NCBI RefSeq assembly: GCF_003860585.1
Contig: NZ_CP034159.1
Span: forward strand, 3,162,001 to 3,226,000
Length of the DNA stretch: 64,000 nucleotides
Direction of reading: 5' to 3'
Source of the DNA: Kaistella carnis
Lineage (GTDB): Bacteria > Bacteroidota > Bacteroidia > Flavobacteriales > Weeksellaceae
This document shows, piece after piece, positions 10,521-31,575 of the stretch (position 1 is its first letter; every line of letters starts with the position of its first letter). The notes beneath the pieces were generated by a model. That model saw nothing but the letters and a program-made list of their open reading frames with translations. It was not told where the DNA came from and made no database searches. The translations under genes and the position numbers were made by a program.

Positions 10521-10851
10521 GACTTTTTTAGTGTTTTGGTTTCTCGAATTACTTCGAATTTTGATTGATGTTCCGTAAATAAATTACTAAAATTTTTTTA
10601 ACGCAAAGGGCGCAAGGTTTTTTTATAAATATGCTTTTAATTACGTTCGCAAAGGCGTTTCACTTAGCAAGGTTCGCAAAGAATTTAATTTATTGCTATT
10701 CACGGAAATTTACTTTTAATAACGAGTTTTCTAATTATAACTCATCTGCAGCCCGACTTGAACGGAGCTCTTTTTTATTGGTGGCTGAGCCTGTCGAAGC
10801 CAGCAATAAAAAAAGCGGGAGTGGAAGGCGGAAATGTCTGCCTAATTGAGT
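10521..10851. other. 331-bp spacer between the transketolase halves
   Basis: I see no gene here. It holds CGCAAAG-type short repeats (10597-10617 and 10650-10681), a 67-bp AT-rich stretch, and a copy of the dispersed intergenic repeat at 10746-10831. The 72-codon frame on the plus strand (10631-10849) is composed of these repeats and is not taken as a gene. Confidence 0.6.
10746..10831 (+). repeat. Dispersed intergenic repeat, copy A1
   Basis: The left arm is GCCCGACTTGAACGGAGCTC and the right arm is AGCGGGAGTGGAAGGCGG. Between them lies the inverted pair TTTTTTATTGGTGGCT / AGCCAGCAATAAAAAA. The centre (10783-10801) is GGCTGAGCCTGTCGAAGCC, a motif familiar from widespread bacterial extragenic palindromes. 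Copies A2 and A3 carry the same arms with different centres and the opposite orientation. Confidence 0.85.
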
Positions 10852-11703
10852 TTAGTAATCAGCCGGCGCTTCTAAATACAATTGTTTGAAAGCGTTATCC
10901 AGTTGCTCATCGCTAGGCGCTTTTCCGTGCCATGCGTGAGTTCCCATCATAAAATCTACACCATGTCCCATTTCGGTATGCAATAGAATACACACGGGTT
11001 TTCCCTGACCGGTTTCTGCTTTTGCTCTTTCCAGAATCGCGATTACGGCTTCTAAATCGTTTCCGTTTTTCTCGTTCAAAACGATCCAGCCAAATGCTTC
11101 CATTTTTGCGTGTAGATTTCCTAAATCTAAAACATCATCGGTGTCGCCATCAATCTGACGTCCGTTGTAGTCAATGGTTGTAATTAAATTATCTACTTTT
11201 TTAGCAGCGGCAAACATAAATGCTTCCCAGTTTTGACCTTCCTGCAATTCGCCATCGCCTTGTAATACATAGACCAAGCTTTCATCACCGTCTAATTTTT
11301 TACCTAAAGCGGCACCAATCGCAACCGACAATCCCTGACCCAAAGACCCCGAAGCGACTCTGACTCCCGGAAGATCGTCATGCGTGGTTGGATGTCCCTG
11401 CAATCTGGTTCCCAATTTTCTAAACGTTGCCAATTCTGCAACGGGGAAAAAATCGAATCTCGCTAAAGTGGAGTAGAACACGGGCGAAATGTGTCCGTTG
11501 GAAAGAAAGAAAAGATCTTCGTTTTTTCCTTCCATGGTGAAAGGGAGTTTGTAGTTCATGACTTTCCCGTACAATGCGGTGAAGTATTCGGTACAGCCCA
11601 AACTTCCGCCCGGATGCCCTGAATTAACGGCGTGAACCATTCTTAAAATGTCTCTTCTAATCTGTGTGGTAAGAGATTTCAGCTCTTCAGTAGATTTACT
11701 CAT
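10852..11703 (-). CDS. Transketolase, N-terminal (TPP-binding) subunit
   Basis: This 283-residue protein corresponds to the N-terminal PP domain of transketolase. It shows HAVNSGHPGGSLGC near the start, the thiamine-diphosphate motif GDGELQEGQNWEAF (about 150-163) and DYNGRQIDGDT, which belong to the Mg-TPP-binding GDG(X)nN pattern. HTEMGHGVDFM is also typical. It should form a heteromer with the C-terminal subunit at 9573-10520. The N-terminal gene comes first in transcription. Whether one transcript crosses the repeat-bearing 331-bp gap is open. Confidence 0.92.
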   Translation of the reverse strand: MSKSTEELKSLTTQIRRDILRMVHAVNSGHPGGSLGCTEYFTALYGKVMNYKLPFTMEGKNEDLFFLSNGHISPVFYSTLARFDFFPVAELATFRKLGTRLQGHPTTHDDLPGVRVASGSLGQGLSVAIGAALGKKLDGDESLVYVLQGDGELQEGQNWEAFMFAAAKKVDNLITTIDYNGRQIDGDTDDVLDLGNLHAKMEAFGWIVLNEKNGNDLEAVIAILERAKAETGQGKPVCILLHTEMGHGVDFMMGTHAWHGKAPSDEQLDNAFKQLYLEAPADY

Positions 11704-11813
11704 TATTTTGATTTATTTGCAGGCGAATTTAGTGATTTTTGATGGGTTTCAAAAATGGGCGAAATGAAAAAATTTTGTTTAGAAGTCTCGCCTGAAATTG
11801 TGGAAAATTGATC

Positions 11814-13157
11814 TTAAGGATAAAAAGTATATTCTAAAAGCACTTTTTTAATTCTGCAGTTGTTGAGAAAATCGATGGAAGTTAGAAGGTTTTTACCATT
11901 CAAATGGTAAGTGGCTTCCAGTTTGAGTTTTTCATTTTCTCCATCCTCGTTATTTGCAAAGTATTCTTCATAAAGCTGATCGCTTTTTTTGAGAATTTTG
12001 TACTCTTTTTGCTGCAAAATTTTACCATCCTGAAACGAAGTGTAGGTATAAGTGAAGGGAAAAACCCACGGATCACTGCTGCAGTTACTTGTCCAGATTT
12101 TGCCATCGATATAATATTTCACGCAATCTTTTTCTAATTTGTCCTCGGTGAAAGAATTGTCCTCGGCATTTTGATCTCCTGACATCATCATGAAAGATTT
12201 ACGAAGAAGATGATCGCCGCTCAAAGTATAAATTTCAGTTTCATCGGCATCACCCACATTTTTTTGCATGATCATTTGGTCGTTGCTGTAATTTATTTTG
12301 GTCGTGTGCAACGCACCTTTGATTTCAGAAAGCCTGTTGTTTTTATAAATAAATGTGGTGTTACTGGAGATTTTTCCAGATTTATCATATTGAATGTTTG
12401 AAGTTGGCTGACCGGCTGTATTCAGTTCTTTTTTCTCAAAAAGCATTTTTTTTCCATTCCCCAAAATAAAGGTGGTCGTTATTGATTTTACTTTTTCTTG
12501 CGATCTGTTGAAGATCATGGATTCCTTTTCGATGAGCGCCATTTCGGGAACAGAACCGATCTGCAAAAAGGCATTCATGACCAACTTAGACTTGTCGGTG
12601 AAATTATCTTTGCTTAAAAGTTCGGCAATTTCTTTTTTGTAATTCGTAGTAGTGGTCACATAAGACGATTGTTTTTTAAGGCCCAATTGCGCCGCAACAA
12701 ATTCGGTTGCATTTTTCTTACCTTCTTGTACCACTGCAGATTTCTTCAGATCGCCGCTCCAGAAAGCCGTTGCCTGAAAAGTGTTTCCTTTTCCCGACAA
12801 ATCCAAATATTCCCCGTTTTCAAAAAGCAGATACGTGTACCGCACGATTTTTTTCAGTTGAAAATCGGTTTTTTTAAAATTTTTCCGGAGTTCATTTTCT
12901 TCCTGATCTTCGGGAGACATTAAACCTTCACCTTGACTTTGATCAATGTCGATAAGGAATACGGAAGGTTTTCCACTTTTTATTTCAAGAGTATCAACGG
13001 CGTAATCATTTTAAAATTCGTCGCCACTCGTCATACTTACAACTGCAGCTTATATCGGTGTTTTTGGTTTAGAATTTTTCTTCTGCGGTGATTTTTTCTG
13101 CGCCTGAAGACTTAGTGAGAAAAAAATGATAAGGGAAGTGGACATTATTTTGAGCAT
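11814..13157 (-). pseudogene. Secreted hypothetical protein with a broken 5' region
   Basis: The longest intact frame runs from ATG 12920 to 11814 (368 residues, starting MSPEDQEENELRKN) and has no signal peptide. Upstream in the same frame, an ATG at 13157 opens a good signal peptide (STSLIIFFSLSLQAQ), but TAA stops at 13050-13052 and 13011-13013 separate the two parts. Between the stops another frame reads DISCSCKYDEWRRILK, after which NDYAVDTLEIKSGK rejoins the main frame. Two compensating frame changes near an A5 run and a T4/A4 run would restore one protein of roughly 447 residues. It is either decaying or mis-assembled. The family is not recognised, and the mature part looks beta-rich. 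Confidence 0.65.
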
Positions 13158-13248
13158 TGTTTTAAATTATTTTAAGAATTGGTATTGAAGGAATGCGTTC
13201 TTAAATAGAAAAATTAAAGTCTGTACATATTATCAGATTTGAAAATTT

Positions 13249-13785
13249 TTAGCAACCTTCATTCATATACACATTCACTTCTGTGACCACATTATTGATC
13301 AATGTGAAAGATAAGTTCGTGCCCGCATCGTTATCGGTCAGCACAAAATTGCTCATTGTAGATGATAGTTTTTCGGTTTTTTCATCCCACATTTGGTTCA
13401 CGGAGAAATTGGGGTAATTTTTATACGCGTCTAATAATTCTTCTTTGGTGCTGCCAACGCCCATGCCGCTTTTTGTACGGAATTTTTTACTGGTGGTCGA
13501 CAAAGAATAGATTTGATAGCCCCGTAGTTTTTCTCCCGCATCATCCCATGTTTCCATGATGGTGATTCCAATGATTTCGCCGTTATAATTCACCTTATTT
13601 TTTTTGTTGTACTCATTTGGGCCATTGTAGACAACTAGTTTAGATTTGGTGAATTGCTCTGCGGCTTTATCTTTCATGCCGATGGTGAAAGGACCAATTC
13701 GTAAAGTGGAAATATCGAAGTTGTCTTGTGCGAATGACTGGATCATCCCAAAGAGGAACATGCTAAGTATTAATAATTTTTTCAT
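13249..13785 (-). CDS. Secreted hypothetical protein
   Basis: The product is 178 residues with a clear Sec signal peptide (MKKLLILSMFLFGMIQSFAQ, cleavage after AQ at about 20). The mature protein is small, beta-rich and has one Cys at the very end (NEGC). The segments LRIGPFTIGMKDKAAEQ and GVGSTKEELLDAY resemble small repeat modules seen in secreted Bacteroidetes proteins in which a gene-specific threshold pattern (G.G.S..E...Y) recurs. I do not recognise a named family. It lies just upstream of the frame-broken secreted protein gene on the same strand, so the two may be functionally linked. Confidence 0.65.
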   Translation of the reverse strand: MKKLLILSMFLFGMIQSFAQDNFDISTLRIGPFTIGMKDKAAEQFTKSKLVVYNGPNEYNKKNKVNYNGEIIGITIMETWDDAGEKLRGYQIYSLSTTSKKFRTKSGMGVGSTKEELLDAYKNYPNFSVNQMWDEKTEKLSSTMSNFVLTDNDAGTNLSFTLINNVVTEVNVYMNEGC

Positions 13786-13885
13786 GGTGATTTGGTTTTA
13801 TGGTTAATCGTTTTTCGGTGCTAAAGTAGGGATTTTTTGAAGAGTTTTGAAATGGAGAATTCGAGTGGTTAAATCGGATGTTTTA

Positions 13886-15121
13886 TTATGTCAAACGTTC
13901 ACAATCTGTTTTATTGACAACTCTATCTCTATATTTCTTCTTATCATTAAAGTTTCTTGAAATATTTTGAACTATTTCTGTGTAATTATCGCTGCCATCT
14001 GGCCTTTTGTGAAAGAATGGCTTTACAGATTTACAGTTGTCATGTTCAAAAATCGTATTGAGCATTGTTCTATCTGAAATTCCACAAGAATGACCTACGA
14101 TAAAGACTTGATATTCCTCTGAATCAATAAATTCTAAAAACTTTTTATAATTGCGTGTTTGTAAGTAAGCAATTGACTTGAAATTCTCTAAATAACGATT
14201 ATCGTTAAGGTTTTCGAAATGTTTATATTTTTCATCGACATCATCACCGAATCCGAATATTACCGGTTTATCTTTGTTCAATAATTCACCATGAATATTA
14301 ACAAGATTTTCGTATCGACTATCTATATAATATTTAAGAGAATCAGTGTAATTGAAATTTAAGAATAGAGTTTGTTTTGGATCTAATTTAAATATTTCAA
14401 TAGAACTTTTAGTATGTAGATCATCAACTCTTGCTTTTAGAAAATTGATAGTTTCTATTTCTGAATTTTCATTACTTTGAAATTCTAGAAATAATTTTTG
14501 AAATCTTCTTGACTCTAAAGATATATCATTTTGTAAATTTAATTTTTCAAACTGAATTCCTAAATATTTTTCAACTTCATTTAAAATCTTTGATTGCGAT
14601 TCTTGAATAAAATCCTTCAGATAAAATCTCTCAAAAATTAAATTTTTAATTCGTTCTTTCGGAATCAGTGTTAGATTAATTTTTTTTAGGTAATCTATAA
14701 ATAGATTTTTTACTACACTAAAGTCTCTATTTAAAGCATCAATTGAATAATTAGAATCGCTGCATCTGTCTAATAATTGATAATATTCGTTTTCAATATC
14801 TACCCAATTTCTGATTGATTTATGGTCATTTATATGAGTAAAAAAACGATTATGAATTGAAAGGTTATAATTATAAGTCTGCAAACATTGTTTAAAAGTT
14901 TCAAAGTTAGTCACAGGCATTCGTGATAAGAACGATAATTCTAAACTATCTGTATTTTCGACTTTAATAACATCATCTTTATAATAACGGCTCTGTCGAT
15001 TCGCAGAATTAGTCATTGTTGAAACGATAGATGACCAGAAATCATCGATAAAATCGTTATAACTGGTTTTTAATCCATGTGCTAAATCGAAACCATTTCC
15101 TACTAAAATTAATCTATTCAT
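13886..15121 (-). CDS. AbiH family protein (phage abortive infection)
   Basis: The product has 411 residues from ATG 15121. A 24-residue in-frame extension to 15193 does not fit, because AbiH proteins begin MNRLILVGNGFDLAHGLKTSY exactly as here. The GNGFD.AHG..T.Y motif, NWVDIENEYY and a late LNFNYTDSLKYY plus NIHGEL segment define the family. In Lactococcus, AbiH protects against phage infection. The gene is more AT-rich than its neighbours and sits alone between housekeeping genes, typical of a one-gene defence cargo. Its biochemical mechanism is not established in the family. Confidence 0.85.
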   Translation of the reverse strand: MNRLILVGNGFDLAHGLKTSYNDFIDDFWSSIVSTMTNSANRQSRYYKDDVIKVENTDSLELSFLSRMPVTNFETFKQCLQTYNYNLSIHNRFFTHINDHKSIRNWVDIENEYYQLLDRCSDSNYSIDALNRDFSVVKNLFIDYLKKINLTLIPKERIKNLIFERFYLKDFIQESQSKILNEVEKYLGIQFEKLNLQNDISLESRRFQKLFLEFQSNENSEIETINFLKARVDDLHTKSSIEIFKLDPKQTLFLNFNYTDSLKYYIDSRYENLVNIHGELLNKDKPVIFGFGDDVDEKYKHFENLNDNRYLENFKSIAYLQTRNYKKFLEFIDSEEYQVFIVGHSCGISDRTMLNTIFEHDNCKSVKPFFHKRPDGSDNYTEIVQNISRNFNDKKKYRDRVVNKTDCERLT

Positions 15122-15196
15122 CAATTGCGTTTGTATAAAAATAGAAAAATCGATTGAGCTTTCAACCGATTTTAAATATTTAGTTTTCAACAATGC

Positions 15197-16633
15197 TTAT
15201 TTCTTCCGAATCAACCACAATCCAAAGAACGTAATCAATCCATTAATAATCAACAACTCCAGACCAATTTTGAAATCACCGAAAAAGTTCTCTTGGTATT
15301 TATCGATCAAAAACGAAATAACCGGCGAAGCGATACAAACATAAGGAACCCATTTGTCCTTCACCTGGAATTTGGTGAAAATTCCGAACGCAAACAATCC
15401 GAGTAGTGGTCCATAGGTAAATCCAGCCATTTTCAGAATCAAACCGATCATCGAATTGTCATTGATCAATTTGAAAATAATAACCATGACCAAAAAGGCA
15501 AACGCCACAATCAAGTGAACTCTCTTTCTGAATTTCTCCTGCTCTTTTTGGGAAATTGGTTTTTCTCTCAACCCAAAAACATCAATACACAGTGACGAAG
15601 TTAAAGCCGTCATCGCGCCATCTGCACTTGGGAACAGCGCTGAAATTAAAGCCACAATAAAGATGATGGAAATAAATGGAGGCATATGATTCAAGGCGAT
15701 ATCCGGGAACAATTGATCTCCGGAACTTGCCACATGTTCTGTGTTTCCATAAAGGTGCAAAAGTCCACCCATAAACAGGAATAGGGAAATAACAACAACC
15801 AGAATAAATCCTAGCGTGACCATATTTTTCTGCGAATCTTTCAGTTTGGTTACCGACAAGGATTTCTGCATCATTTCCTGATCAATTCCGGTCATTGTAA
15901 TGGTGATAAAAGCACCGGCTAAAATCTGTTTAAAAAAGAAAGCTTTGCTGTTTACATCCGTATTGAAAACCTCGGTATAGCCCAGTTTATTCATTTCGGA
16001 AATACTTTCCATGAAGTTTAAATCCAGATGCTTCATCATATAAACCGAGCAAATGATCAATCCCAGAAGCATACACGTTGTTTGCAAAGTATCGGTCCAG
16101 ACAATGGTTTTTACGCCACCTTCATAAGTATACAGAATGATCATTCCCAAAATAACCAGTGTCGTCACAATAAACGGAACCCCTAGACTGTCTAAAATGG
16201 TGAGCTGCAGAATATTCACCACCAAATATAATCTCGCCGTTGCACCTACCAAACGCGAAACGATGAAGATCCAGGCTCCGGATTTGTAAGAAAGTTTCCC
16301 CATTCGCTGTTGCAGATAACCGTAAATAGAGGTCAGTTTTAAGCGGTAATAAAGGGGGAGAAGCACGTATGCGATGACGATATATCCTATCAAATAACCA
16401 ATTGTAATTTGCAGATAATGAAATTGATCTGCGCCAACAGCTCCCGGAACCGACACGAAAGTCACGCCCGAAAGCGAGGTTCCGATCATTCCAAACGCAA
16501 CAAGCATCCAGTTGCTTTTTCGGTTTCCAATAAAAAAACTTTCGTTGTTACTGCCTTTTCCGGTTCGGTAAGCGACCCAAAGTAAAAGTGCAAAATACGC
16601 AATAATGATCAACAGCAACACGAGTGGATTCAT
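15197..16633 (-). CDS. Sodium:solute symporter (SSS family)
   Basis: This 478-residue membrane protein starts at ATG 16633; the upstream ATG at 16657 adds eight polar residues. It has about 13 hydrophobic helices from MNPLVLLLIIIAYFALLLW to the C-terminus. SSS features are NESFFIGNRKSNWMLVAFGMIG with GTSLSGVTFVSVPG, and GYLIGYIVIAY. The Na+-binding helix FIVALISALFPSADGAMTAL is present. It imports a small solute with Na+. The substrate cannot be told from sequence. It lies 75 bp upstream of the AbiH start with no sign of a functional link. Confidence 0.88.
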   Translation of the reverse strand: MNPLVLLLIIIAYFALLLWVAYRTGKGSNNESFFIGNRKSNWMLVAFGMIGTSLSGVTFVSVPGAVGADQFHYLQITIGYLIGYIVIAYVLLPLYYRLKLTSIYGYLQQRMGKLSYKSGAWIFIVSRLVGATARLYLVVNILQLTILDSLGVPFIVTTLVILGMIILYTYEGGVKTIVWTDTLQTTCMLLGLIICSVYMMKHLDLNFMESISEMNKLGYTEVFNTDVNSKAFFFKQILAGAFITITMTGIDQEMMQKSLSVTKLKDSQKNMVTLGFILVVVISLFLFMGGLLHLYGNTEHVASSGDQLFPDIALNHMPPFISIIFIVALISALFPSADGAMTALTSSLCIDVFGLREKPISQKEQEKFRKRVHLIVAFAFLVMVIIFKLINDNSMIGLILKMAGFTYGPLLGLFAFGIFTKFQVKDKWVPYVCIASPVISFLIDKYQENFFGDFKIGLELLIINGLITFFGLWLIRKK

Positions 16634-16771
16634 AGAATTTGTTTTATAAATTTCCACAAATATAGTTTTTTTTGAGAGGATTTGGGTGCAGGCTTTAGGG
16701 TGTAGAAAAGGAAATCATTATTTTTTTTGCCACCTGTTTAAGTTTTTTGATTTGGTGCTTTTTATTTTTTG

Positions 16772-16893
16772 GGGTGCCTTTTTCCGCCTTCCGTTCCCGC
16801 TTTTTTAATTGCCGGCTGATTTTCCGCAGGCTGAATTTGACACTATGAGTTCAGCCATCAATTAAAAAGAGCTCCACTCAAGTCGGGGCGCAG
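16772..16893 (-). repeat. Dispersed intergenic repeat, copy A2
   Basis: Read on the minus strand, the arms are GCCCCGACTTGAGTGGAGCT and AGCGGGAACGGAAGGCGG, the same as A1 and A3. The inner inverted pair is TTTTTAATTGATGGCTGA / AATCAGCCGGCAATTAAAAA, with a different centre from A1. Confidence 0.85.
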
Positions 16894-16924
16894 GTTTTTA
16901 CTTCTTTTAAATCTCAGGCACAAA

Positions 16925-16958
16925 AAAAGACCTTTAATATTTATACAAAAGGTTCTTT
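16925..16958 (-). terminator. Hairpin terminator downstream of the GNAT gene
   Basis: The stem AAAGACCTTT / AAAGGTTCTTT (one mismatch) leads on the minus strand into a T-run. It is about 115 bp beyond the stop at 17074 and may end the MFS-TMEM175-GNAT transcript. Confidence 0.5.
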
Positions 16959-17073
16959 CGGTATTTAATTCCACTTCAGATTGCGCTAGCCGAAGTCTTT
17001 ATGATCGAAATGATTGTAGTGATAAAAACACTTCTACAATCTCAAAGGGAATAGATGCTTTTAATAATGAAAG

Positions 17074-17346
17074 TTATTCTGCCAAAATATCTTTAAACTC
17101 CGGCGTTTTCTCGATCATCTTTTTCGCGTACGGACAATAGGAAACAATTTTTAGATCATATTTTTTTGCGCTTTCTACGGCAGCTTTTACCAGTTCTTTG
17201 CCTAAGCCTTTTCCACCAAATTCTTCAGAAACTTCGGTATGTGTAATTACGAATACTCCTTCCTTTCTTTCATATTCCATAAATCCTGCTTTTTGTCCTT
17301 CGTAAAAAAGATCAAGCGTTTTCTCGTTTTGTTTTACTTCTGTCAT
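17074..17346 (-). CDS. Small GNAT-type N-acetyltransferase (YjdJ-like)
   Basis: This 90-residue protein contains the minimal acetyltransferase fold of the YjdJ/DUF-type GNAT group. GQKAGFMEYERKEGVFVITHTEV is followed by the acetyl-CoA loop GGKGLGKELVKAAVESAKK and then VSYCPYAKKMIEK. A close paralogue is encoded at 20999-21283 (same GGKGLAKELV and CPYAKETFEKN). It is the last gene of a likely operon with the TMEM175 channel (11-bp gap) and MFS exporter genes. The substrate is unknown. Confidence 0.85.
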   Translation of the reverse strand: MTEVKQNEKTLDLFYEGQKAGFMEYERKEGVFVITHTEVSEEFGGKGLGKELVKAAVESAKKYDLKIVSYCPYAKKMIEKTPEFKDILAE

Positions 17347-17357
17347 TATAGTACTAT

Positions 17358-17933
17358 TTATTGTTCTAGATTTTTTTCAATTCTTAAGTCAGGAATGGTC
17401 CACAATAATGCGGCCAAATAATACATAATTACCGCAGCGACCGGAAAATAGAAAGAAAGTACAATGCCACTAATGTAAATTGCGGCAGATATTTTTTCTT
17501 TTAAAGTAGATTTCAGGGCTTTTGCAATCACGGAATCTTTGCCTTCCAGATCGAGGCAAAGTTTTTGTAAAATATTGAATGCTAAAGCACACATTAGGAG
17601 GATAAACCCATACAAGGCGACCGGGTTTTCTGCAAAGTCATTTTCTCCCATCCAGGAAGTGGCAAATGGTAAAATGGAGAGCCAAAATAAAAGGTGCAGA
17701 TTCGCCCAAAGCACTTTTCCATTCACGTGTTCTACCGCCTGAAAAAGATGATGGTGATTATTCCAGTAAATTCCAACGTATAGAAAACTGAAAATGTAAG
17801 ACAGGAATTTAAAGGCCATTGGTCTTAGAGCCTGAAAAGTATCGCCTTCCGGAATTCGCAATTCTAAAACCATGATCGTGATGATAATGGCGAGAACACC
17901 GTCGCTGAAAGCTTCTAATCTACCTTTTGTCAT
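17358..17933 (-). CDS. TMEM175 family potassium channel (DUF1211)
   Basis: This 191-residue membrane protein has about six helices. It starts TKGRLEAFSDGVLAIIITIMVL, which carries the FSDG motif of helix 1 that is diagnostic of TMEM175/DUF1211 channels. NNHHHLFQAVEHV, WANLHLLFWLSILPF and the C-terminal helices also fit. Bacterial members form tetrameric K+-permeable channels. It is co-directional with the MFS gene (38-bp gap) and the GNAT gene (11-bp gap), so it is part of one transcription unit. Confidence 0.88.
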   Translation of the reverse strand: MTKGRLEAFSDGVLAIIITIMVLELRIPEGDTFQALRPMAFKFLSYIFSFLYVGIYWNNHHHLFQAVEHVNGKVLWANLHLLFWLSILPFATSWMGENDFAENPVALYGFILLMCALAFNILQKLCLDLEGKDSVIAKALKSTLKEKISAAIYISGIVLSFYFPVAAVIMYYLAALLWTIPDLRIEKNLEQ

Positions 17934-17971
17934 TTGTTATAAAAGAATAAAGGTAATTAAATTCTGTAAAT

Positions 17972-19156
17972 TTAAAGATGTGCTTTTCTAAATTTTGTCA
18001 GGCTCAAAATGACGAATCCCAAAAGTGCTAGTATCAAATATCCTTCCGCCACTTCCAACTGCATCGTCGGGCGAAGAAGGGCAACAATGGTATAACTTAC
18101 GGCCGAAGTGATGATATAGGAAACACCGCCCGTTAAGCCTCCTGCAACTCCCGCTGAATTTGGAAATCTTCCGATGCAGTAGGCGAAATAATTATTAAAA
18201 ATGAAACCCGCCGTAATGTGGATTACGAATGCAAATGCCACCAGACTGTAAATGTTGTTTAGAAAGAAAGAGCAAAAGATCATAAAGAGGATTAGAAATA
18301 ACTGTGTGTAATTTGCAAATCTGATTTTAGGCAGAAAATCTTTTTCTATTAAGAATTTTCCCAGAAACCCTCCGCTCATCCACGCTAAACCCAGGATCAA
18401 AGAAACGTAACCCGCGACCACTTCTGAATAACCCATTTTGTGTTCAATGATAAATGCGCCGCAAAGATTAAAGAAAATCACCATGGCATAACTTATGCCA
18501 CACATGAGCATGCCGTAGAAAAAATCCTTCGTTCGGAACATCATGTCGTATTCCTTTAACACAAAATTGATAACAAAGGGCTTTTTAACTTTTAAGGTTT
18601 CCCCGGAAAATAGAAGTTCCAAAATCAATAACACCAAACTGTAGCCCGCCAAGACGTAAAAATTCGACTGCCATCCGAAGAGTTTCTGCAAATAACCTCC
18701 CAAAAACGGCGCGACAATAGGACCGACTGACCACACGATCGTCATGACACTCAAATAATGTTTTCGCTGTTCTCCTTCAAAAACATCTACAAAAAATGCA
18801 CGTTTGGAGACAATTGCAAAACCAGCTAATACGCCCTGTAAAATACGCATCGCATAGATCACCATAATGTCTCTTGTTAAAGCCGTCACTAAAAAGCTGA
18901 CCATAAATAAACCGAGAGAAACCAGTGTTACACGATATCTTCCGAAAGAATCGACAACGCTTCCTGCAAAAAATTGTGTGATTCCATAACTGATCAAGAA
19001 TAAAGTCAGCGTGAGTTGAATTTTAGTCTCCGGTTGCTGAAGTTCGATCGCCATCGTCGGCATCGAGGGCAAGTAAATATCGGTCGCCAAACCCGACATT
19101 GGAATAACCGCGAATGCGAGCAAAGTGGCAATTAGCTTATTTTTTTCTTTTAGCAT
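17972..19156 (-). CDS. Bcr/CflA-type multidrug MFS transporter
   Basis: The product has 394 residues and 12 predicted helices. The opening PMSGLATDIYLPSMPTMA is the Bcr/CflA motif (TDIYLPS.P). GITQFFAGSVVDSFGRYRV and LRILQG-type sequence (YAMRILQGVLAGFAIV) follow the drug/H+ antiporter-1 pattern. It probably exports drugs or small hydrophobic compounds with protons. It is the first gene of the probable MFS-TMEM175-GNAT operon. The true substrates are unknown. Confidence 0.88.
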   Translation of the reverse strand: MLKEKNKLIATLLAFAVIPMSGLATDIYLPSMPTMAIELQQPETKIQLTLTLFLISYGITQFFAGSVVDSFGRYRVTLVSLGLFMVSFLVTALTRDIMVIYAMRILQGVLAGFAIVSKRAFFVDVFEGEQRKHYLSVMTIVWSVGPIVAPFLGGYLQKLFGWQSNFYVLAGYSLVLLILELLFSGETLKVKKPFVINFVLKEYDMMFRTKDFFYGMLMCGISYAMVIFFNLCGAFIIEHKMGYSEVVAGYVSLILGLAWMSGGFLGKFLIEKDFLPKIRFANYTQLFLILFMIFCSFFLNNIYSLVAFAFVIHITAGFIFNNYFAYCIGRFPNSAGVAGGLTGGVSYIITSAVSYTIVALLRPTMQLEVAEGYLILALLGFVILSLTKFRKAHL

Positions 19157-19318: not shown

Positions 19319-19337
19319 CATTATAATAAAAATTTAT

Positions 19338-24159: not shown

Positions 24160-24173
24160 TTAACAAATTTAAG

Positions 24174-24181
24174 ACATTCAG
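24174..24181 (-). promoter_or_regulatory. Possible -7 box TAAATTTG of the DHA2 transporter
   Basis: It matches TAnnTTTG on the minus strand 15 bp before the ATG at 24159, which would give a leader of only a few bases. No good -33 TTG is visible. Confidence 0.3.
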
Positions 24182-24332
24182 AAGCAAAGAAGTTGCCATC
24201 CGTTTAAGTCTTTGTTAAAAATAGTCATTGATGAAATCTTAAACAAAAAAAATTCCACGAAATCAATCGCAGAATTTTTAAGAATGATTAAAATACTTTT
24301 TTAAGAACCCAAATTTAAAAGTCCAGAACCGG

Positions 24333-24364
24333 ATTCAAAATTCAAAATTCAGAATTCAAAATTG
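24333..24364. repeat. Short tandem repeat of ATTCAAA units
   Basis: The 8-9-bp unit ATTCAAA(A) is repeated about four times with one variant (ATTCAGA), ending at the 3' end of the asnB gene. No function is seen. Confidence 0.6.
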
Positions 24365-24366
24365 TT

Positions 24367-26037
24367 TTAATAGGAATCTTCATGAACCGACAAAACAGCT
24401 CTTCCACTGGGATCATTTGCATTTTTGAAAGCCTCATCCCATTCTAAAGCGATTGGGGTAGAACACGCAACAGATGGAACTGAAGGAACGGTTGCCGCTG
24501 CAGTTTCACTCGGGAAATGTTCTTCGAAAATTGTTCGGTACCGGTATTCTTCTTTATTTTGAGGCGTGTTCAGCGGAAAACGGAATTTTGCATTGGTCAT
24601 CATTTCATCGGTAACTTCCTGATTCGCTACTTCCTTTAACGAGTCGATCCAGGAATATCCAACTCCATCAGAGAACTGTTCTTTTTGGCGCCAGGTGATA
24701 CTTTCCGGAAGCATATCTTCAAAAGCTTTTCTCAAGACCCATTTTTCAATTTTGGGTTCGTGTGCAGTTACCATTTTGTCTTTTGGATTCAGGCGCATTG
24801 CTACATCCATAAACTCCTTATCCAGAAAAGGAACACGGCCTTCAATTCCCCAACTCATCAGGGATTTGTTCGCCCGCAAGCAATCATATAAATGAAGTTT
24901 ATTAAGTTTTCTCACATTCTCTTCATGGAATTCTTTTGCATTGGGCGCTTTATGAAAGTATAAATAGCCGCCGAAAAGTTCATCGCTTCCTTCGCCGGAA
25001 AGCACCATTTTTATTCCCATAGATTTAATGACTCTTGCTAATAAATACATCGGCGTAGAAGCACGAATCGTTGTCACATCGTAGGTTTCCAAATGATAAA
25101 TAACGTCTCGAACGGCATCTAACCCTTCCTGCACGGTGAAATGAACTTCGTGATGAATGGAGCCGATATGTTCTGCCGCTTTTTGTGCCGCAATTAAATC
25201 GGGGCTTCCTTCCAAACCAACCGCAAAACTGTGTAAACGGGGATACCAAGCTTCCTGCGTGTCCCCACTTTCGATTCTATTTCTGGAATATTTTGCCGTC
25301 ACTGCAGAAATAATGGAAGAATCCAAACCGCCGGAAAGTAAAACTCCATAAGGAACGTCGCTCATTAACTGGCGGTGAACAGCGTCTTCTAAAGCTTTTC
25401 GCAGTTCGGCAATATCCGTAGTGTTGTTTTTTACATTTTCAAAATCTTCCCAATCTCTTTTGTACCATTGCTGCATTTCGTAGCCATCTTTGCTGTATAA
25501 AAAATGTCCCGGTAAAAAGTTTTCGATGGTTTTACAAATACCTTCCAACGCCTTTAATTCTGAAGCCACATAGTAATTTCCGTTTTTGTCCCAACCTTGA
25601 TAAAGTGGACATATTCCCATATGATCACGCGCAACAAAGTAAACGTCATTTTCGATATCATAAATTGCAAAGGCGAAAATTCCGTTCAGTTTATCCACGA
25701 AATCTTTTCCATATTTTTGAAATAAAGGTATGATGACTTCGCAATCTGATTCAGTTTGGAAATCATAATCCGGAAACTCTTTTCGCAAATCGCGGTGGTT
25801 ATAAATTTCCCCATTTACTGCTAAAACTATTTTTTTGTCTTTGGAGAACAAAGGTTGTTTTCCCGAAGTTGGATCCACAATCGCCAATCTTTCGTGAGAA
25901 AAAATTACTTTCTCATTTTGAAAAATTCCGCTCCAGTCCGGACCGCGATGACGTATCTTTTTCGACATTTCTAAAACCTGAGGTCTTAAGAGTTCGGTTT
26001 TTTGTTTCGCATCAAACAGGCATACAATTCCACACAT
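24367..26037 (-). CDS. asnB: Asparagine synthase B (glutamine-hydrolysing)
   Basis: This is a 556-residue enzyme. The ATG at 26037 is chosen because MCGIVCLFDAKQ puts the catalytic N-terminal cysteine (Cys2 before Met removal) of the glutaminase domain in place; upstream in-frame ATGs would bury it. The N-terminal class II amidotransferase spans about 1-190 (RHRGPDWSGIF, AVNGEIYNH). The C-terminal synthetase follows at 210-500 with the PP-loop VLLSGGLDSSIISAV. It makes asparagine from aspartate, glutamine and ATP. It appears monocistronic. Confidence 0.95.
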   Translation of the reverse strand: MCGIVCLFDAKQKTELLRPQVLEMSKKIRHRGPDWSGIFQNEKVIFSHERLAIVDPTSGKQPLFSKDKKIVLAVNGEIYNHRDLRKEFPDYDFQTESDCEVIIPLFQKYGKDFVDKLNGIFAFAIYDIENDVYFVARDHMGICPLYQGWDKNGNYYVASELKALEGICKTIENFLPGHFLYSKDGYEMQQWYKRDWEDFENVKNNTTDIAELRKALEDAVHRQLMSDVPYGVLLSGGLDSSIISAVTAKYSRNRIESGDTQEAWYPRLHSFAVGLEGSPDLIAAQKAAEHIGSIHHEVHFTVQEGLDAVRDVIYHLETYDVTTIRASTPMYLLARVIKSMGIKMVLSGEGSDELFGGYLYFHKAPNAKEFHEENVRKLNKLHLYDCLRANKSLMSWGIEGRVPFLDKEFMDVAMRLNPKDKMVTAHEPKIEKWVLRKAFEDMLPESITWRQKEQFSDGVGYSWIDSLKEVANQEVTDEMMTNAKFRFPLNTPQNKEEYRYRTIFEEHFPSETAAATVPSVPSVACSTPIALEWDEAFKNANDPSGRAVLSVHEDSY

Positions 26038-26083
26038 GATTTCTATATTTATCGTTTTGTAAATTTTAATTAAAATTCTACCA

Positions 26084-26091
26084 CAAACATA
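26084..26091 (-). promoter_or_regulatory. Possible -7 box TATGTTTG of asnB
   Basis: A match to TAnnTTTG on the minus strand about 47 bp upstream of the chosen ATG. The -33 TTG is not at consensus spacing. Confidence 0.35.
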
Positions 26092-26232
26092 TTGTAAAAG
26101 TTTATAAAAATAAACTAAAAATTTCAAAAAGTGAATATTTTTCTTAAATAAGTTTTTAAAGAGGAAAAATTTAAGTTAATCGTACAATTTGACCGATTTA
26201 TATTGAAAATTTTCATTGCCTCCATTTAAAAT

Positions 26233-26266
26233 AAAAACACTTCCCGAAGAAGAGAAGTGTTTTTTT
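26233..26266 (-). terminator. Terminator downstream of the GMC oxidoreductase
   Basis: The stem AAAAACACTTC / GAAGTGTTTTT with a short loop lies about 21 bp after the stop codon at 26287. The A-rich left arm reads as the T-tract on the minus strand. Confidence 0.8.
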
Positions 26267-26286
26267 ATCGTTGTTAAAGCGAATCT

Positions 26287-27879
26287 TTAAACAAAATCCT
26301 TCTTAATAATTTCCTCCATACAATATTCTGCAATCGCTGTAATTGTCACAAAAGGATTTACGCCGATCGTTCCGGGAATTAAAGAACCATCAATTACATA
26401 TAAATTCTGATGACCGTTCAATCTTCCGAACTGATCAGTTGCTTTTCCCAAAACAATTCCGCCCAGGGGATGATAACAAACATCAGCACCAAAACCATTA
26501 TGGAACAGTATATGCGATCTCGTTCCACCATTGGCATTATTCATAGTACGCAGAAAATGTTTTGCATTGTCTTTCATATGCGCCGTGTGCGATTGGTCCC
26601 AGTTTAAATCTAATTTCTGAGCTTTCAGATCATATTTTACTTCGCCAAATTTCTTCAGTTTATTCACCATTAAGTAAAGCGCTGTCGCTACATTTAATCC
26701 CATAGGTAAAGGTGCGATCTCTACAAAGAATGGATGTTCCTTATCTTCCCAGTGATCAATTCCACCTACTGGAATCGTAGATTGTTTAAATCCTGTTCCG
26801 CCAGAAAAAGCTTTTACCCAATTTCGTCCCGTCATAAAGTTTCCGTTGTTTCCCCATTCTTTTCCAACGTTTTCATCAATTGGGAGCTGTGTTTTCGCGC
26901 TGGACTTTAATAACAATTCTATAGAGCCCATTGTTCCGGCCGACAGAATTAATTTCTTTGCGTTAATGATTTTATGCTGAATTTCTTCTCCTTTTGTATT
27001 GATAACAGAAATATCGATGGTATAACTTTTATCTGGATTTTGAGAAATATGATTCACCTGATGCAAATCTAGAATTTCCAGTTTTCCTGTTGCCGTCGCT
27101 TTTTTCAGGTAGGTTTTATCTAATGAGTTTTTGCCGTGATTATTTCCGTAAATCACTTCTCCGGCCAGAGCAGAACGTGGTACTTCTTCTTTGTACTCTT
27201 TTTCCATGTAATTGAAATCATACACATTCGGAACACGAACCGTTTTAAAACCTGCTTTGTGGGCCTCTTCTTCACCAACTCTGTTGAACTTATAGAAGTG
27301 ACAGTCTTTTAAAAATTCCTCTGAAGCCACATTGGTTTTCAATTCTTTATTTGCTAAAGGAAAGTAATGGGAATAAAATTTCTCTGTATCTAAGTTTGGA
27401 AATATTTCTTTAAAATATTCTTTTTTTGGAGTAACAGCCATTCCGCCATTCACGAGAGAACCACCGCCAACTCCGCGGCCAACCCAGACTTTGATATGCT
27501 CGAAATCCAGTCGGTCTAATGTTCCAGTGAATTTATCTAAATTAAAAAGATTAAAAAAGGGTGCAATGGTTTTTGTTTTTAGCCAGGCTGCAGAATGACC
27601 CGGATTGATCATGGGCGAAAATTTCTCCCCGGATTTCTCCCAGTTTAAGCCCATTTCTAACAGGGTGACGGGAATGCCTTTTTCACAGAGTCTTAATGCT
27701 GCAACGGAGCCTCCATAACCGGACCCGATAATAACGACCTCTTTGTCAATCATCTCTGTGGGCTTATTTGATTTAATTTCTAAAGGGTTTTGTGCTTTTC
27801 CAAACAGATTGCCTGATCCTAAAAAGAAAAAGGCCGCAATACCTAAACTACTGGTTTGAATAAATTCTTTGCGATTCAT
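26287..27879 (-). CDS. GMC family oxidoreductase (cholesterol oxidase-like)
   Basis: This 530-residue flavoprotein has an N-terminal signal-like segment (MNRKEFIQTSSLGIAAFFFLGSG), with a single Arg and so not a clear Tat signal. The FAD-binding VVIIGSGYGGSVAALRLCE (about 49-67) follows, then GRGVGGGSLVNGGMAV, which is typical of cholesterol oxidase-like enzymes. Near the C-terminus are YHPLGGIVLGKATD and NPFVTITAIAE, which hold the catalytic His/Asn region. It oxidises an alcohol, perhaps a sterol, and passes electrons to O2. It probably acts outside the cytoplasm. The substrate is not shown by the sequence. Confidence 0.85.
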   Translation of the reverse strand: MNRKEFIQTSSLGIAAFFFLGSGNLFGKAQNPLEIKSNKPTEMIDKEVVIIGSGYGGSVAALRLCEKGIPVTLLEMGLNWEKSGEKFSPMINPGHSAAWLKTKTIAPFFNLFNLDKFTGTLDRLDFEHIKVWVGRGVGGGSLVNGGMAVTPKKEYFKEIFPNLDTEKFYSHYFPLANKELKTNVASEEFLKDCHFYKFNRVGEEEAHKAGFKTVRVPNVYDFNYMEKEYKEEVPRSALAGEVIYGNNHGKNSLDKTYLKKATATGKLEILDLHQVNHISQNPDKSYTIDISVINTKGEEIQHKIINAKKLILSAGTMGSIELLLKSSAKTQLPIDENVGKEWGNNGNFMTGRNWVKAFSGGTGFKQSTIPVGGIDHWEDKEHPFFVEIAPLPMGLNVATALYLMVNKLKKFGEVKYDLKAQKLDLNWDQSHTAHMKDNAKHFLRTMNNANGGTRSHILFHNGFGADVCYHPLGGIVLGKATDQFGRLNGHQNLYVIDGSLIPGTIGVNPFVTITAIAEYCMEEIIKKDFV

Positions 27880-28186
27880 ACTTGCTCCTTAACAAATAGT
27901 GTACTAAAACAGGATTTGAAATTAAAAAAATAAGGATTAACATAATAACTGAGACTGATTTCAATTTTATACGACCTCACTTTTGTGGGAATTTTGGTAT
28001 TTTTCATTGAGGTTCTGAAAAAGTGGGTAAGAAGAACCGCTTTTTGTTTTTAGCCGCGATTGGAGTGAAAATCCCGCAGAGAGGCGCGAGCGAAGCGAGC
28101 GCCGACCGAGGAATTGTAACGTAAAGCGGGACTGATAGAGGAGAGAAGAAAAAATCTTTTTGCTCCGAAAAAAAAATAATCCTCAT
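27880..28186. other. 307-bp gene-free region
   Basis: It holds a copy of the diverged dispersed repeat (28051-28140). The 60-codon frame on the minus strand at 28004-28186 is made of this repeat and is not a credible gene. No promoter could be assigned. Confidence 0.6.
28051..28140 (+). repeat. Dispersed intergenic repeat, diverged copy B1
   Basis: The arms AGCCGCGATTGGAGTGAAAA and AAGCGGGACTGATAG resemble those of the A copies (GCCCCGA-TTGAGTGGA and AGCGGGA). Its stem uses TCCCGC / GCGGGA, and the centre carries GCGAGCGAAGCGAGCGCC, an internal short palindrome-like block. Confidence 0.6.
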
Positions 28187-29851
28187 CTATTCCTCGCCCA
28201 AAAGCACGCCCGAAACATTCCAGGAACTGAAGCTGTTACCTTCTTTCTCGCCTTGTGGGATCAAGATTTGAATCTGATGATTGCCCGCCTTTAGATCGCC
28301 CAAAGAAATGTAAATCGGATTCGTCGTAGTGCCGGGACACCAGTTGCTGCGGCTGTAATCGGAAGAAGAAAGTCCGTTGGCAAAGTTGCCCGAAGCCGGA
28401 TTGTAAAGGCGATAACTGCCGCAATCGGTGCGCCATGGAACAAAAGAAAATACCTCTTTTCCGTCGACAAGAATCGTATTTTCTTTCGGTAAAAATTCAT
28501 CGCCATTTTCCCAGCCGCCGTGTCCCGTTGTAATATAGCGGAGTTTCGCGTTTTTCAAATCTTTTTTCAGCGTGAAATCGGTAATCAAACCTTTTGGAGA
28601 ATTAAACATGGTGGCATACTCCTGTCCCTCCATTTCCATGATATTCAAGGTGTTAAAAAGGGGAGTAACGGTGTTGTTTCTGAAAACATCGAGTCCATCT
28701 TTATGGATCGTCATTTCCAATGAAACCTTGTGTCCGTTTTTGTTGTAGTTTCCAATGAAAACTCCCGTCCAGAATTCTTTTTCGCTCAGGATTTCTTTAA
28801 AATCTGAAATATCCTGTCTGTAATATACTTTGTCGTGCCAGTTTTTATCTTTTAATTTCAGATGATTAAACTGCTGAATTCCAAAAGGCGTGAAAAATCT
28901 CATGAGTTCCAAAGGAGGCTCATAATTTTCCGTGGCCACAACTCCCTGATATGTTTTTCCGTTTCCATTGTCGAAAGATGGAATTGTTTTAACACCGTTT
29001 TGTAGCGCATCGAAAAAGCTTTTCTCTTTATTCTGAGGAATAATGAAAACGCTTCCTGTTCGGTCGTAAGCGTCACCTGCCGATTGCTCTGTTAATTCAA
29101 CGAAAACATTCGCGTTCGCTTCTATTTTTGGATACTTTACTTTTTTAAGAATGAGAGTTCCTTTGGCAAAACGTAGAATTTTTTTATCCTTTTTTAAATC
29201 AGATGTAAAATTGATGGTTTCATTTTCAAAAGTTGATATGGTTGTGAAACGGCTTTTCCAAAGGAGATCTTTATAAGTTAGTTCGTCGGTTGGTGCTATT
29301 TTCTTTTGGTCAAAGATTTTTTCCAGGCTGAAGTTTTTTACTTTCGAGATTTCAGTAGCTTTGGTTGTGGTGTTGCCGTTTCTGGTAATTTCTAAAACCA
29401 ACCCCAAGTCCTGACCTAAGAGCGAAGGTCCGCCTTTGACTTTCAAATCAGTCGTGTACCAAATGTCCATGGTATTGGAGTTGATGGAGGTTACCGCTTT
29501 TTTACAAGTATAACCTAAGATTTTCTTGATATCGCTTTTAAGTTCGAATTTTTGTTTTGCTAAAATCTCTTTATTTTCATAGTCAGAAACTGCATTATTC
29601 AGTAGAAAAGCAAATTGATTAATCCGGTTATCAGTTCTGTTAATTTTCTGAATTTCAAACGGAATGTCTTTGGTCGTTTTCAAAATTTGATCACTCAGAA
29701 TAAAGGTTTCTTTGTCATTTGTGAAAACAATAGTAGGATCTTGTTTCTCATTTTCTTTTCCTTCAAAAAACGTTTTATAGGTAATTTTATAATTTTGAGC
29801 ATATAGGATTTGAGCAATAGACAACAGCAGAAATACGAATAACTTTTTCAT
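28187..29851 (-). CDS. PNGase F-II type peptide-N-glycosidase
   Basis: This 554-residue secreted protein has a signal peptide of about 19 residues (MKKLFVFLLLSIAQILYAQ). The N-terminal region (about 20-170) is GLPGLI-like/bowl domain: YKITYKTFFEG, ILGYTCKKA and MDIWYTTDLKVKGGPSLL. The C-terminal half carries the PNGase F folds, with YITTGHGGWENGDEFL, VPWRTDCGSYRLYNPASG and SDYSRSNWCPG. Type II PNGase F enzymes from Elizabethkingia have this N-terminal bowl domain. It would remove N-glycans from glycoproteins outside the cell. No partner gene is adjacent. Confidence 0.85.
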   Translation of the reverse strand: MKKLFVFLLLSIAQILYAQNYKITYKTFFEGKENEKQDPTIVFTNDKETFILSDQILKTTKDIPFEIQKINRTDNRINQFAFLLNNAVSDYENKEILAKQKFELKSDIKKILGYTCKKAVTSINSNTMDIWYTTDLKVKGGPSLLGQDLGLVLEITRNGNTTTKATEISKVKNFSLEKIFDQKKIAPTDELTYKDLLWKSRFTTISTFENETINFTSDLKKDKKILRFAKGTLILKKVKYPKIEANANVFVELTEQSAGDAYDRTGSVFIIPQNKEKSFFDALQNGVKTIPSFDNGNGKTYQGVVATENYEPPLELMRFFTPFGIQQFNHLKLKDKNWHDKVYYRQDISDFKEILSEKEFWTGVFIGNYNKNGHKVSLEMTIHKDGLDVFRNNTVTPLFNTLNIMEMEGQEYATMFNSPKGLITDFTLKKDLKNAKLRYITTGHGGWENGDEFLPKENTILVDGKEVFSFVPWRTDCGSYRLYNPASGNFANGLSSSDYSRSNWCPGTTTNPIYISLGDLKAGNHQIQILIPQGEKEGNSFSSWNVSGVLLGEE

Positions 29852-30154
29852 TCTTTAGATTTTGTAGACTTTTAATTTGTCTCAAATTTAAGATTTTAAA
29901 AGTTCCTTCCATAAGAATTTTCTATGCAAAAACGTAACGTTTAAAATTCCTCTGAAAACATTTAAGACACAATGTTCGCCTCAGTAAAATAGGCTTTAAT
30001 AGAATTGCAATTATATGAACTTAATAAACCCAGTAAGTTCCATCTCAAAAAAAACGTTTGTGACTTTTGCGGTTTAACAAAAGCGGACACTTAAGTTTCA
30101 ACGAAAGAAAAAGGAGCGAAAATTTTCGCTCCTTTTAGTATATGATGTATAATC
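29852..30154. other. 303-bp gene-free region
   Basis: Apart from the hairpin at 30110-30136, it contains GTTTGTGACTTTTGCGGTTTA (30055-30075 region), a copy of the short CCGCAAAAG-type motif also seen at 1923 and 2043. I see nothing else. Confidence 0.5.
30110..30136 (-). terminator. Terminator downstream of the RsmB-like gene
   Basis: AAAGGAGCGAAAA / TTTTCGCTCCTTTT forms a near-perfect stem without a long loop, 19 bp beyond the stop at 30155. Its left A-run supplies the T-tract on the minus strand. Confidence 0.8.
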
Positions 30155-31360
30155 TTATGCTTTTCTCTCGATCAGCGCCATGTAGAATCCGTCGAATCCG
30201 GAACTTGGCATAACCTTCTCTTCTTTAATTAAGGAATAACCTTCATTATTTTTCAGGAACGTTGCGACCTGTTCATCGTTTTCGCTGGGCAAAATAGAAC
30301 ATGTTGCGTAAACCATCTTTCCGCCTTTTTTCAAGATCTTGGCGTAATCCTGTAAAATTTGCTGTTGTTCTTTTTTAATCCGGTCAATAAATTCCTGGTC
30401 AATTTTCCATTTAGAATCAGGATTTCTTTTCAAAACTCCCAAACCTGAACACGGCGCATCGATCAACAAACGATCCGCTTTTTCATGGAGTCTTTTAATG
30501 ACTTTGTTATCATCAATGGGTCTGGTTTCAATATTGTGTGCGCCCGCTCTTTTTGCGCGACGCTTCAGTTCGGCCAATTTCCATTCGTAAATATCAAGAG
30601 CGATGATCTGTCCTTTGTTTTTCATCAAAGCCGCCAGATGCAAAGTTTTTCCACCCGCTCCGGCACATACATCCACCACGCGCATTCCTTCTTTAACGTC
30701 CAGCAATTCGCCGATTTTTTGGGAAGAAGCATCCTGAACTTCAAACAAACCGTCCTTAAATGCCGAGGTTAAAAATACATTTTTCTTTTCCTCCAGTTGT
30801 ATCGCATCCGGATAATTCGGGATGGGAAAACTTTCAACTTTCTCATCTCTTAAATCAGATACCAATTCTCGGGCTGTCGTTTTCAACGTGTTCACACGCA
30901 AAATAGTCGGTGCTTTTTCGTTCAGCGCCTCCATTTCTCTTTCCCAACTCGGGCCGAGTTCTTTCTCCAAAGTTTCGGCTAACCATTCCGGTATAGAATA
31001 CTGAATGGCTTTTGTAGGAACCGTGTTTTTCTTTAATTTGTTGATGATCTCAGCGTTTTTAATGCCGTCGAATTCTTCAAATTTTTTGTAATGCGTTTTG
31101 GTCCAAAGGCAATACGTTAAAATCATTTTATAAATGTTGGCTGGTTTTACACCTTCGCCCATGTAGTATTCCAGGCGTTTTTTCCAGCGAATAATGTCAT
31201 AAAAGATCTGAGCAACCACTTTTCGGTCTTCGCTGCCCCATTGTTTATGGCCTTTTAATAGTCTTTCAATTACTTTATCGGCATATTTTCGGTCTTCGAA
31301 AAAAGTTTCCTGCAAAGCATCGTGAATTCCGATGAGTAAGTTTCTGTGTATGAGTTCCAT
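30155..31360 (-). CDS. RsmB/NOP family RNA cytosine methyltransferase
   Basis: This 401-residue protein has an N-terminal helical NusB-like region (about 1-130), then a SAM-dependent methyltransferase. VVDVCAGAGGKTLHLAALM is the SAM motif I, LIDAPCSGLGVLKRNPDSKW carries the motif IV cysteine (PCSG), and YATCSILPSENDEQV carries the motif VI cysteine (TCS). These two cysteines are characteristic of m5C RNA methyltransferases. The target, most likely 16S rRNA cytosine, is inferred from family members. The start ATG 31360 is followed by MELIHRNLLIGIHDAL. Confidence 0.88.
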   Translation of the reverse strand: MELIHRNLLIGIHDALQETFFEDRKYADKVIERLLKGHKQWGSEDRKVVAQIFYDIIRWKKRLEYYMGEGVKPANIYKMILTYCLWTKTHYKKFEEFDGIKNAEIINKLKKNTVPTKAIQYSIPEWLAETLEKELGPSWEREMEALNEKAPTILRVNTLKTTARELVSDLRDEKVESFPIPNYPDAIQLEEKKNVFLTSAFKDGLFEVQDASSQKIGELLDVKEGMRVVDVCAGAGGKTLHLAALMKNKGQIIALDIYEWKLAELKRRAKRAGAHNIETRPIDDNKVIKRLHEKADRLLIDAPCSGLGVLKRNPDSKWKIDQEFIDRIKKEQQQILQDYAKILKKGGKMVYATCSILPSENDEQVATFLKNNEGYSLIKEEKVMPSSGFDGFYMALIERKA

Positions 31361-31412
31361 TTAGGATAATTTAGGTTAAATTCAGCCTCGAACCTTCGGG
31401 CTATAATTTTTG

Positions 31413-31420
31413 CAAAAATA
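31413..31420 (-). promoter_or_regulatory. Possible -7 box TATTTTTG of the RsmB-like gene
   Basis: It matches TAnnTTTG on the minus strand about 53 bp upstream of the ATG. The leader between them can form a small hairpin, AGCCCGAAGGTTCGAGGCT (31385-31403). Confidence 0.4.
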
Positions 31421-31454
31421 AGGTTTTTTAGCCGAATAGCATGTTTCATCTTTT

Positions 31455-31575
31455 GGGCGCCTTTATCCGTCTTCCGTTCCCGCTTTTTTTCTTGCCGGCT
31501 TCGTTTAAACAGGCTGATGTATTACGGTAAGATCAGCCAACAATAAAAAAGAGCTCCACTCAAGCCGGGGCGCAG
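31455..31575 (-). repeat. Dispersed intergenic repeat, copy A3
   Basis: On the minus strand it reads GCCCCGGCTTGAGTGGAGCT, then TTTTTTATTGTTGGCTGA, a unique centre, CAGCCTG...GCCGGCAAGAAAAAAA and AGCGGGAACGGAAGACGG. It is closest to A2 and has the same orientation. Confidence 0.85.

Follow-up and report, generated by a model that had tools for sequence, protein, structure and literature searches.

A stretch of 64,000 nucleotides of the Kaistella carnis genome (NZ_CP034159.1, positions 3,162,001 to 3,226,000; hereafter the window, in whose coordinates positions are given) contains three copies of an intergenic repeat with similar arms and different centres, together with a fourth, related element. 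Copy 1 (10744–10846, plus strand) scores 78.7 bits with R1, a covariance model built from 56 relatives. It has a left arm at 10752–10770, a variable centre with GGCTGAGCCTGTCGAAGCC at 10771–10814, and a right arm, GCGGGAGTGGAAGGCGG, at 10815–10831, all on the plus strand and read from the sequence, the right arm also by pattern match; its outer stem is GCAG/CTGC and its centre is a REP (repetitive extragenic palindrome)-like hairpin. Copy 2 (16769–16895, minus strand; 76.5 bits with R1) has one broken outer-stem pair, and copy 3 (31452–31577, minus strand; 82.8 bits) carries the conserved mismatch described below in its G.A version. The fourth element, at 59023–59100 on the minus strand, is a canonical member of the Rfam family Flavo-1 (RF01705, 56.7 bits) with the centre GAGGAGGAACGACGA; R1 gives it 35.6 bits at 59016–59101. 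A preliminary description of the window had reported the three repeats, and R1 recovered all of them in place with slightly wider bounds. They are intergenic, as had been said, all three lying between open reading frames (ORFs) of at least 90 amino acids, and the REP-like GGCTGAGCCTGTCGAAGCC is indeed found in the centre of copy 1. The arms, which had been described as shared, are similar without being identical, and most of their differences are compensatory: those of copy 1 are GCAGCCCGACTTGAACGG and GGGAGTGGAAGGCGG, and those of copies 2 and 3 are GCGCCCCG[A/G]CTTGAGTGG and GGGAACGGAAG[G/A]CGG. With up to three mismatches, the right-arm pattern matched at three places in the window, where shuffles led to an expectation of 0.02, and the left-arm string in its original wording matched only copies 2 and 3, against 0.00 expected. 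A very weak R1 match at 59550–59635 (minus strand; 13.6 bits, E 0.12) lies inside an ORF and is probably due to chance.

The window copies belong to a much larger set. A search of the 3.23 Mb genome with R1 gave 54 matches at E ≤ 0.01 (150 of 2773 candidates scored), and the strong matches numbered 43, at 71.6 bits or more, followed by a gap down to 42.9 bits. The arm pattern with up to two mismatches matched 37 times in the same genome and the reversed pattern not once; the window thus holds 3 of the 37 pattern matches and 3 of the 43 strong model matches. Of the 120 genomes sampled from the Weeksellaceae, 60 carried the R1 element, as did 17 of the 33 genera, no more than 37 candidates being scored in any one genome. 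The arm pattern was present in each of the 25 congeneric genomes examined (K. carnis included), with 1 to 44 copies each, and it was absent by the same pattern search from 15 of 15 genomes of other families of the order. A wider scan with the arm pattern matched at least 119 stretches, and the named records among the matches listed included Chryseobacterium, Epilithonimonas, Kaistella, Halpernia, Cloacibacterium, Amniculibacterium and two Flavobacterium. One arm-pattern match, at 4457–4478 of L109, comes from a record titled Angelakisella massiliensis, a name outside the Bacteroidetes; no two-armed element was seen there among the rows listed. Six arm strings did not occur in the open-access literature searched.

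The fold was surveyed in 189 distinct two-armed elements. Six versions of the four-pair outer stem, each fully paired, account for 176 of them (7 are unreadable and 6 imperfect), namely GCAG/CTGC in 112 elements, GCGC/GCGC in 32, GCGA/TCGC in 15, GCAC/GTGC in 7, GCAA/TTGC in 6 and GCGT/ACGC in 4. The inner helix of two pairs occurs as GT/AC (98), AC/GT (57), GC/GC (18) or AT/AT (6) in 179 of the 189. The first internal loop is TGA/GGA in 183 and the second GGA/GGGA in 176 elements, and on the arms' own strand the conserved loops consist of G.A or G.G oppositions. A conserved mismatch is A.G in 142 elements, G.A in 44 and G.G in 3. In the alignment of 56 sequences, 99.1% of 1064 cells are paired and 8 of 19 pairs have changed on both sides; covariation scores 0.264 in this alignment, compared with 0.114 (sd 0.008) when it is shuffled and at most 0.078 when it is slid. 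Further pair types number 14 against 12.0 after shuffling, a level reached by 6 of 500 shuffles. Most letters of the right arm were fixed by the search pattern, but it constrained neither the two-pair helix nor the outer stem. A covariance model and a genome search, which the preliminary description had proposed, have uncovered far more than three copies, with covariation among them.

Comparison with Rfam places the repeats beside a known family, a kinship that the preliminary description missed. Flavo-1 is the best Rfam family for copies 1, 2 and 3, with 35.4, 36.9 and 22.7 bits, all under its gathering cut-off of 42 bits, and each copy aligns to the whole length of the model (positions 1–76 of 76). 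The reciprocal comparison, of R1 with canonical Flavo-1, also gave weak matches, and hybrid copies were found in which the outer arms of the new branch enclose a Flavo-1-like inner stem (L077, L078, L083, L084 and L085). Because of these whole-length matches below the cut-off, weak reciprocal matches and hybrids, the window repeats are a diverged branch related to Flavo-1 that is mostly left out by the Rfam threshold. A match to a known family had been named as an outcome that would count against a distinct element, and it came about by half, since all three copies match Flavo-1 but below its cut-off. The two share the order of helices, the purine mismatches and the orientation bias described below. 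The new branch differs from Flavo-1 in an extra outer stem that occurs in compensatory versions, in its inner helix (GCTC/GC against AATCC/GAT in Flavo-1) and in its foot, GCCCAAA. Flavo-1 itself is frequent in the K. carnis genome, with 72 matches at E ≤ 1, of which 49 are above the cut-off (150 of 935 candidates scored); weak matches occurred in 5 of 14 control genomes, none above the cut-off. The family entered the literature in 2010 as a candidate RNA, and the table of Weinberg et al. marks it 'y' for RNA and 'n' for both cis-regulatory and switch (PMC2864571). Rfam classes it as a small RNA (sRNA), and a 2022 review that counts it as one of the most abundant sRNA families states no function for it (PMC9029176). 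In Flavobacterium psychrophilum, Flavo-1 matches have been described as lying 'indistinctly' sense or antisense of transcribed regions, with many outside them (PMC9723704), so that the published record on its expression as an RNA is equivocal.

Copies at shared sites show how the element changes in place. A comparison of the flanks of 98 clean copies gave 33 sites common to at least two loci. Of 149 within-site pairs, 122 agreed in the type of outer stem (0.82, against 0.38 after shuffling, with 0 of 1000 shuffles as high), and the copies are therefore mostly inherited at their sites. The inner helix was alike in 70 of the 149 pairs (0.47; shuffled 0.37), the A.G/G.A state in 86 (0.58; shuffled 0.54) and the centre, which is exchanged at these sites, in 10. 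A Watson-Crick pair had changed on both sides at 21 of the 33 shared sites, and both A.G and G.A occur at 12 of them. This compensatory change in place suggests selection on pairing where the element resides, although the same changes may stem from conversion among copies or from more than one insertion at the same place. Occupancy of the sites is patchy. For each of the three window sites, a strong copy was found in 5 of 16 congeneric genomes, and the sites have therefore been gained or lost; when weaker matches at the corresponding place are counted, with coordinates read by hand, the numbers are 6 of 16 for copy 1, 8 of 16 for copy 2 and 7 of 16 for copy 3. Orthology is less sure at the copy 2 site because 4 of the 16 flanking genes are only 56–58% identical. 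Two congeneric genomes carry variants at the copy 1 site. In one (L335) a REP-like GTCATTGCGAGGGACTTGGCAATC stands between the stop codon and the element, and in another (L339) a TCCTGAGCTTGTCGAAGGA-type stretch replaces part of the right arm.

The many dispersed copies, the patchy occupancy, the short conserved GCCCAAA foot and the REP-like centres are also what would be expected of a REP-like mobile DNA repeat, spread by a transposase that recognises its folded single strand, with transposition as the main reason why pairing is kept. The inherited outer stem and the compensatory change in place speak against this explanation, as do searches for a partner and a vehicle. The Y1_Tnp domain is present in 16 of 26 genomes, but a tblastn search with seven RAYT queries found no RAYT in 119 element loci (938 kb), transposases other than Y1/RAYT not being sought, and an arm lay within 1.5 kb at only 1 of 30 RAYT loci (L266); a partnership with RAYT was therefore rejected. 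No arm occurs within 1.5 kb of the three RAYT genes of the K. carnis genome, and weak Flavo-1 matches (34.6, 31.2 and 22.9 bits) 2.2–2.9 kb from them were taken as chance. Copy 2 had no blastn match on plasmids or phages. The only arm-pattern match in a viral collection (L362, IMGVR_UViG_3300037119_009367, 213–234) is near a contig end and possibly belongs to host flank. Among the recurrent neighbour families at element loci, the largest spans 6 loci and the leading families group by shared sites. Taken together, a mobile repeat appears an improbable explanation. Of the two possibilities raised in the preliminary description, a mobile or recombining unit is weakly supported, by patchy occupancy and by centres that differ at fixed sites; the inherited outer stem and the absence of RAYT from the element loci speak against it. 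The other, a structured RNA or DNA element, was right and is strongly supported by arms that co-vary, also at shared sites, and by the exchange of A.G for G.A.

The element has a marked position and orientation relative to genes. On its GCCC side, an open frame of at least 100 codons ends within 200 nucleotides of the element or enters it (4 cases) in 126 of 163 flanked elements, and such a frame is found on the other side in 50 of the 163. The distance from the stop codon to the element on the GCCC side has a median of 15 nucleotides in the K. carnis and other genomes, and the commonest value is 9 nucleotides (21 cases). A first pass at gene context, superseded by this one, had put 29 elements inside open frames, mostly short among the rows listed. 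Overall, 113 of 142 elements between tandem genes lie so that the transcript would carry the strand opposite to the folded one (26 of 33 for the new branch and 24 of 31 for other Flavo-1 matches in the K. carnis genome, and 63 of 78 in other genomes). Because genes were called here from longest open frames, and because the 78 include orthologous sites, p-values for this bias are overstated.

A hairpin that closely follows a stop codon might be an intrinsic transcription terminator of the upstream gene, and inverted repeats just past stop codons in Escherichia coli have been described as mostly terminators (PMC6060812). In a flank profile of 180 elements, no T-run followed the hairpin foot on either strand, the foot consensus being GCCCAAA, and the T- and A-runs of the element sit within its stem. 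In addition, a separate terminator-like hairpin precedes 20 of 157 elements on the strand of the upstream transcript, compared with 7–8 at three other placements, and copy 3 lies between divergent starts. The element looks unlike a terminator because of the missing T-run and the separate hairpins, and this identity was rejected as very improbable. By eye, a terminator-like hairpin with a T-run is seen at 16922–16956 (minus strand) of the window, between the stop codon at 17074 and copy 2.

Which molecule folds was approached through strand stability, loops and mismatched pairs. By RNA energies 168 of 170 elements, and by DNA energies 169 of 170, fold more stably on the arms' strand than on the complementary one. 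Apical GNA triloops are predicted in 48 of 170 elements with RNA energies, compared with 4.2 when the centre alone is shuffled, and in 28 of 170 with DNA energies, compared with 3.0. Where the cap is a triloop, it is for the most part of this kind. The RNA energy model is not known to give a bonus to GNA triloops. GNRA tetraloops were at the shuffled level (3 against 3.4 with RNA energies, 4 against 3.8 with DNA energies) and UNCG was absent. Among 375 terminator-like hairpins with perfect stems from the collected loci, GNA occurred in 0 of 38 triloops and GNRA in 10 of 118 tetraloops. GNA loops closed by two or more G-C pairs give mini-hairpins of exceptional stability in DNA, and GCGAAGC has been reported to melt near 78 °C (PMC4686876). 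Wobble pairs are rare in the elements, where G.T makes up 18 of 1476 cells (1.2%) and A.C 11 of 1476; the control, 28 tRNAs from the K. carnis genome, has G.U in 29 of 336 cells (8.6%) of its acceptor and T stems and no A.C. The difference in G.T is significant by Fisher's test over all cells (p ~4e-11) and in pairs free of the search pattern (13 of 984; p 2e-9). The GNA caps, the rarity of G.T and a better-folding strand that is usually antisense to transcription are three points that suggest folding as DNA.

The filing of Flavo-1 implies instead a structured RNA, in which the folded strand is an sRNA or one strand acts within transcripts around the gene. The Rfam class and the verdict of Weinberg et al. 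are on the side of this explanation, and the 5' transcribed regions of F. psychrophilum include several that coincide with Flavo-1 matches (PMC9723704). Against it, the strand that folds better runs antisense to the probable transcript in most tandem pairs; the caps are of the GNA and not of the GNRA or UNCG kind, G.T falls far below its level in tRNA stems, and 20 of 157 elements sit behind a separate terminator-like hairpin, as given above.

A number of observations weigh against folding as DNA and in part favour RNA. The consensus fold, as a single hairpin, is predicted in 145 of 170 elements with RNA energies and in 129 of 170 with DNA energies, and some elements (L040, L043) fold locally instead with DNA energies. 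In pattern-free pairs, G.T exceeds A.C by 13 to 4 (p 0.05), which is RNA-like. When near-duplicate centres are removed, GNA falls to 9 of 66 against 1.3 (RNA energies) and 5 of 66 against 1.45 (DNA energies), and GNRA is then also raised, at 2 against 0.4 and 3 against 0.75, respectively. The GNA excess shrinks in this way, and much of the signal is therefore one recurrent centre type, GTGNAGCGNAGCGGAACA. Canonical Flavo-1 has GNA in only 8 of 63 elements, though these make up 8 of its 9 triloops, and a cruder loop scan without folding, superseded by the counts above, gave GNA 90 against 59.1 but also TNCG 27 against 8.2. Of the four elements in the window, only copy 1 has the majority orientation; the opposite orientation is seen in copy 2 and in the Flavo-1 at 59023, and the neighbours of copy 3 are divergent. 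The strands of copy 2 fold almost equally well with RNA energies (−34.4 and −34.6), as are those of the Flavo-1 of the window, and the lowest-energy RNA fold of copy 1 differs from the consensus. On balance, DNA is tentatively favoured over RNA as the folding molecule, and a structured RNA is rated as unlikely, though less so than a mobile repeat.

The repeats are copies of a conserved stem-loop element related to Flavo-1 that may act as folded DNA near gene ends, a proposal that we would place just short of probable. In negatively supercoiled DNA, the strand rich in G.A mismatches would be expected to extrude there as a stable hairpin. Sheared G.A pairs and the frequent GNA cap would hold this strand, and the complementary hairpin would be weaker. 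In most tandem pairs the better-folding strand is the transcription template. Such a one-sided cruciform could take up supercoils between neighbouring genes, and its folded single strand could be offered to a protein partner; the pairing would be maintained by selection on this local fold to a greater extent than by transposition, and the centre would matter mainly as a cap.

Several known systems resemble the element in part. The attC sites of integrons have conserved arms and a variable terminal structure and are recognised as folded single-stranded DNA. Set beside this general picture of attC, the element is alike in its conserved arms and variable terminal structure, and its copies are scattered singly. 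Promoters of phage N4 form cruciforms at sub-physiological superhelical density with a sheared G:A pair in the loop, and the template-strand hairpin is kept while the other is melted by SSB (PMC4496689). The resemblance lies in a GNA-type loop with a sheared G.A pair, predicted in a minority of the elements though far more often than in shuffles, in the stronger hairpin of one strand and in the use of the template strand; the N4 hairpins differ as small promoters read by a phage polymerase, and extrusion of the present element is only predicted. The REP/RAYT systems, with GTAG- and CGTC-tagged families among them (PMC3733652), are likewise small intergenic palindromes in many copies with a folded strand, and some element centres look like REPs. 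They differ in that no RAYT association was found for the element, whose copies are inherited at sites with compensation in place.

Elsewhere in the window, an ORF of 2402 amino acids at 46835–54043 (minus strand) contains many diverged repeats every ~216–231 bases and resembles a large repetitive surface protein. Neither an origin nor a terminus of replication stood out clearly from the GC skew of scattered stretches.

Flavo-1 was already known as a family filed as sRNA without a function; the diverged branch and the reinterpretation are new. Flavo-1 and the new branch could both be chromosomal DNA hairpins and not RNA, zippered by G.A pairs, capped by GNA, extruding on the template strand at gene ends and kept by selection on the DNA fold, and we advance this wider claim tentatively, with somewhat less confidence than the proposal for the repeats alone. 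If it is true, many RNA annotations in the Bacteroidetes would be wrong in kind, and dozens of genomes would carry a natural collection of DNA hairpins, driven by supercoiling and open to test, that record their own compensatory changes. An outer stem, mismatch swaps and shared sites come with the new branch, and through them the question of DNA or RNA becomes directly testable.

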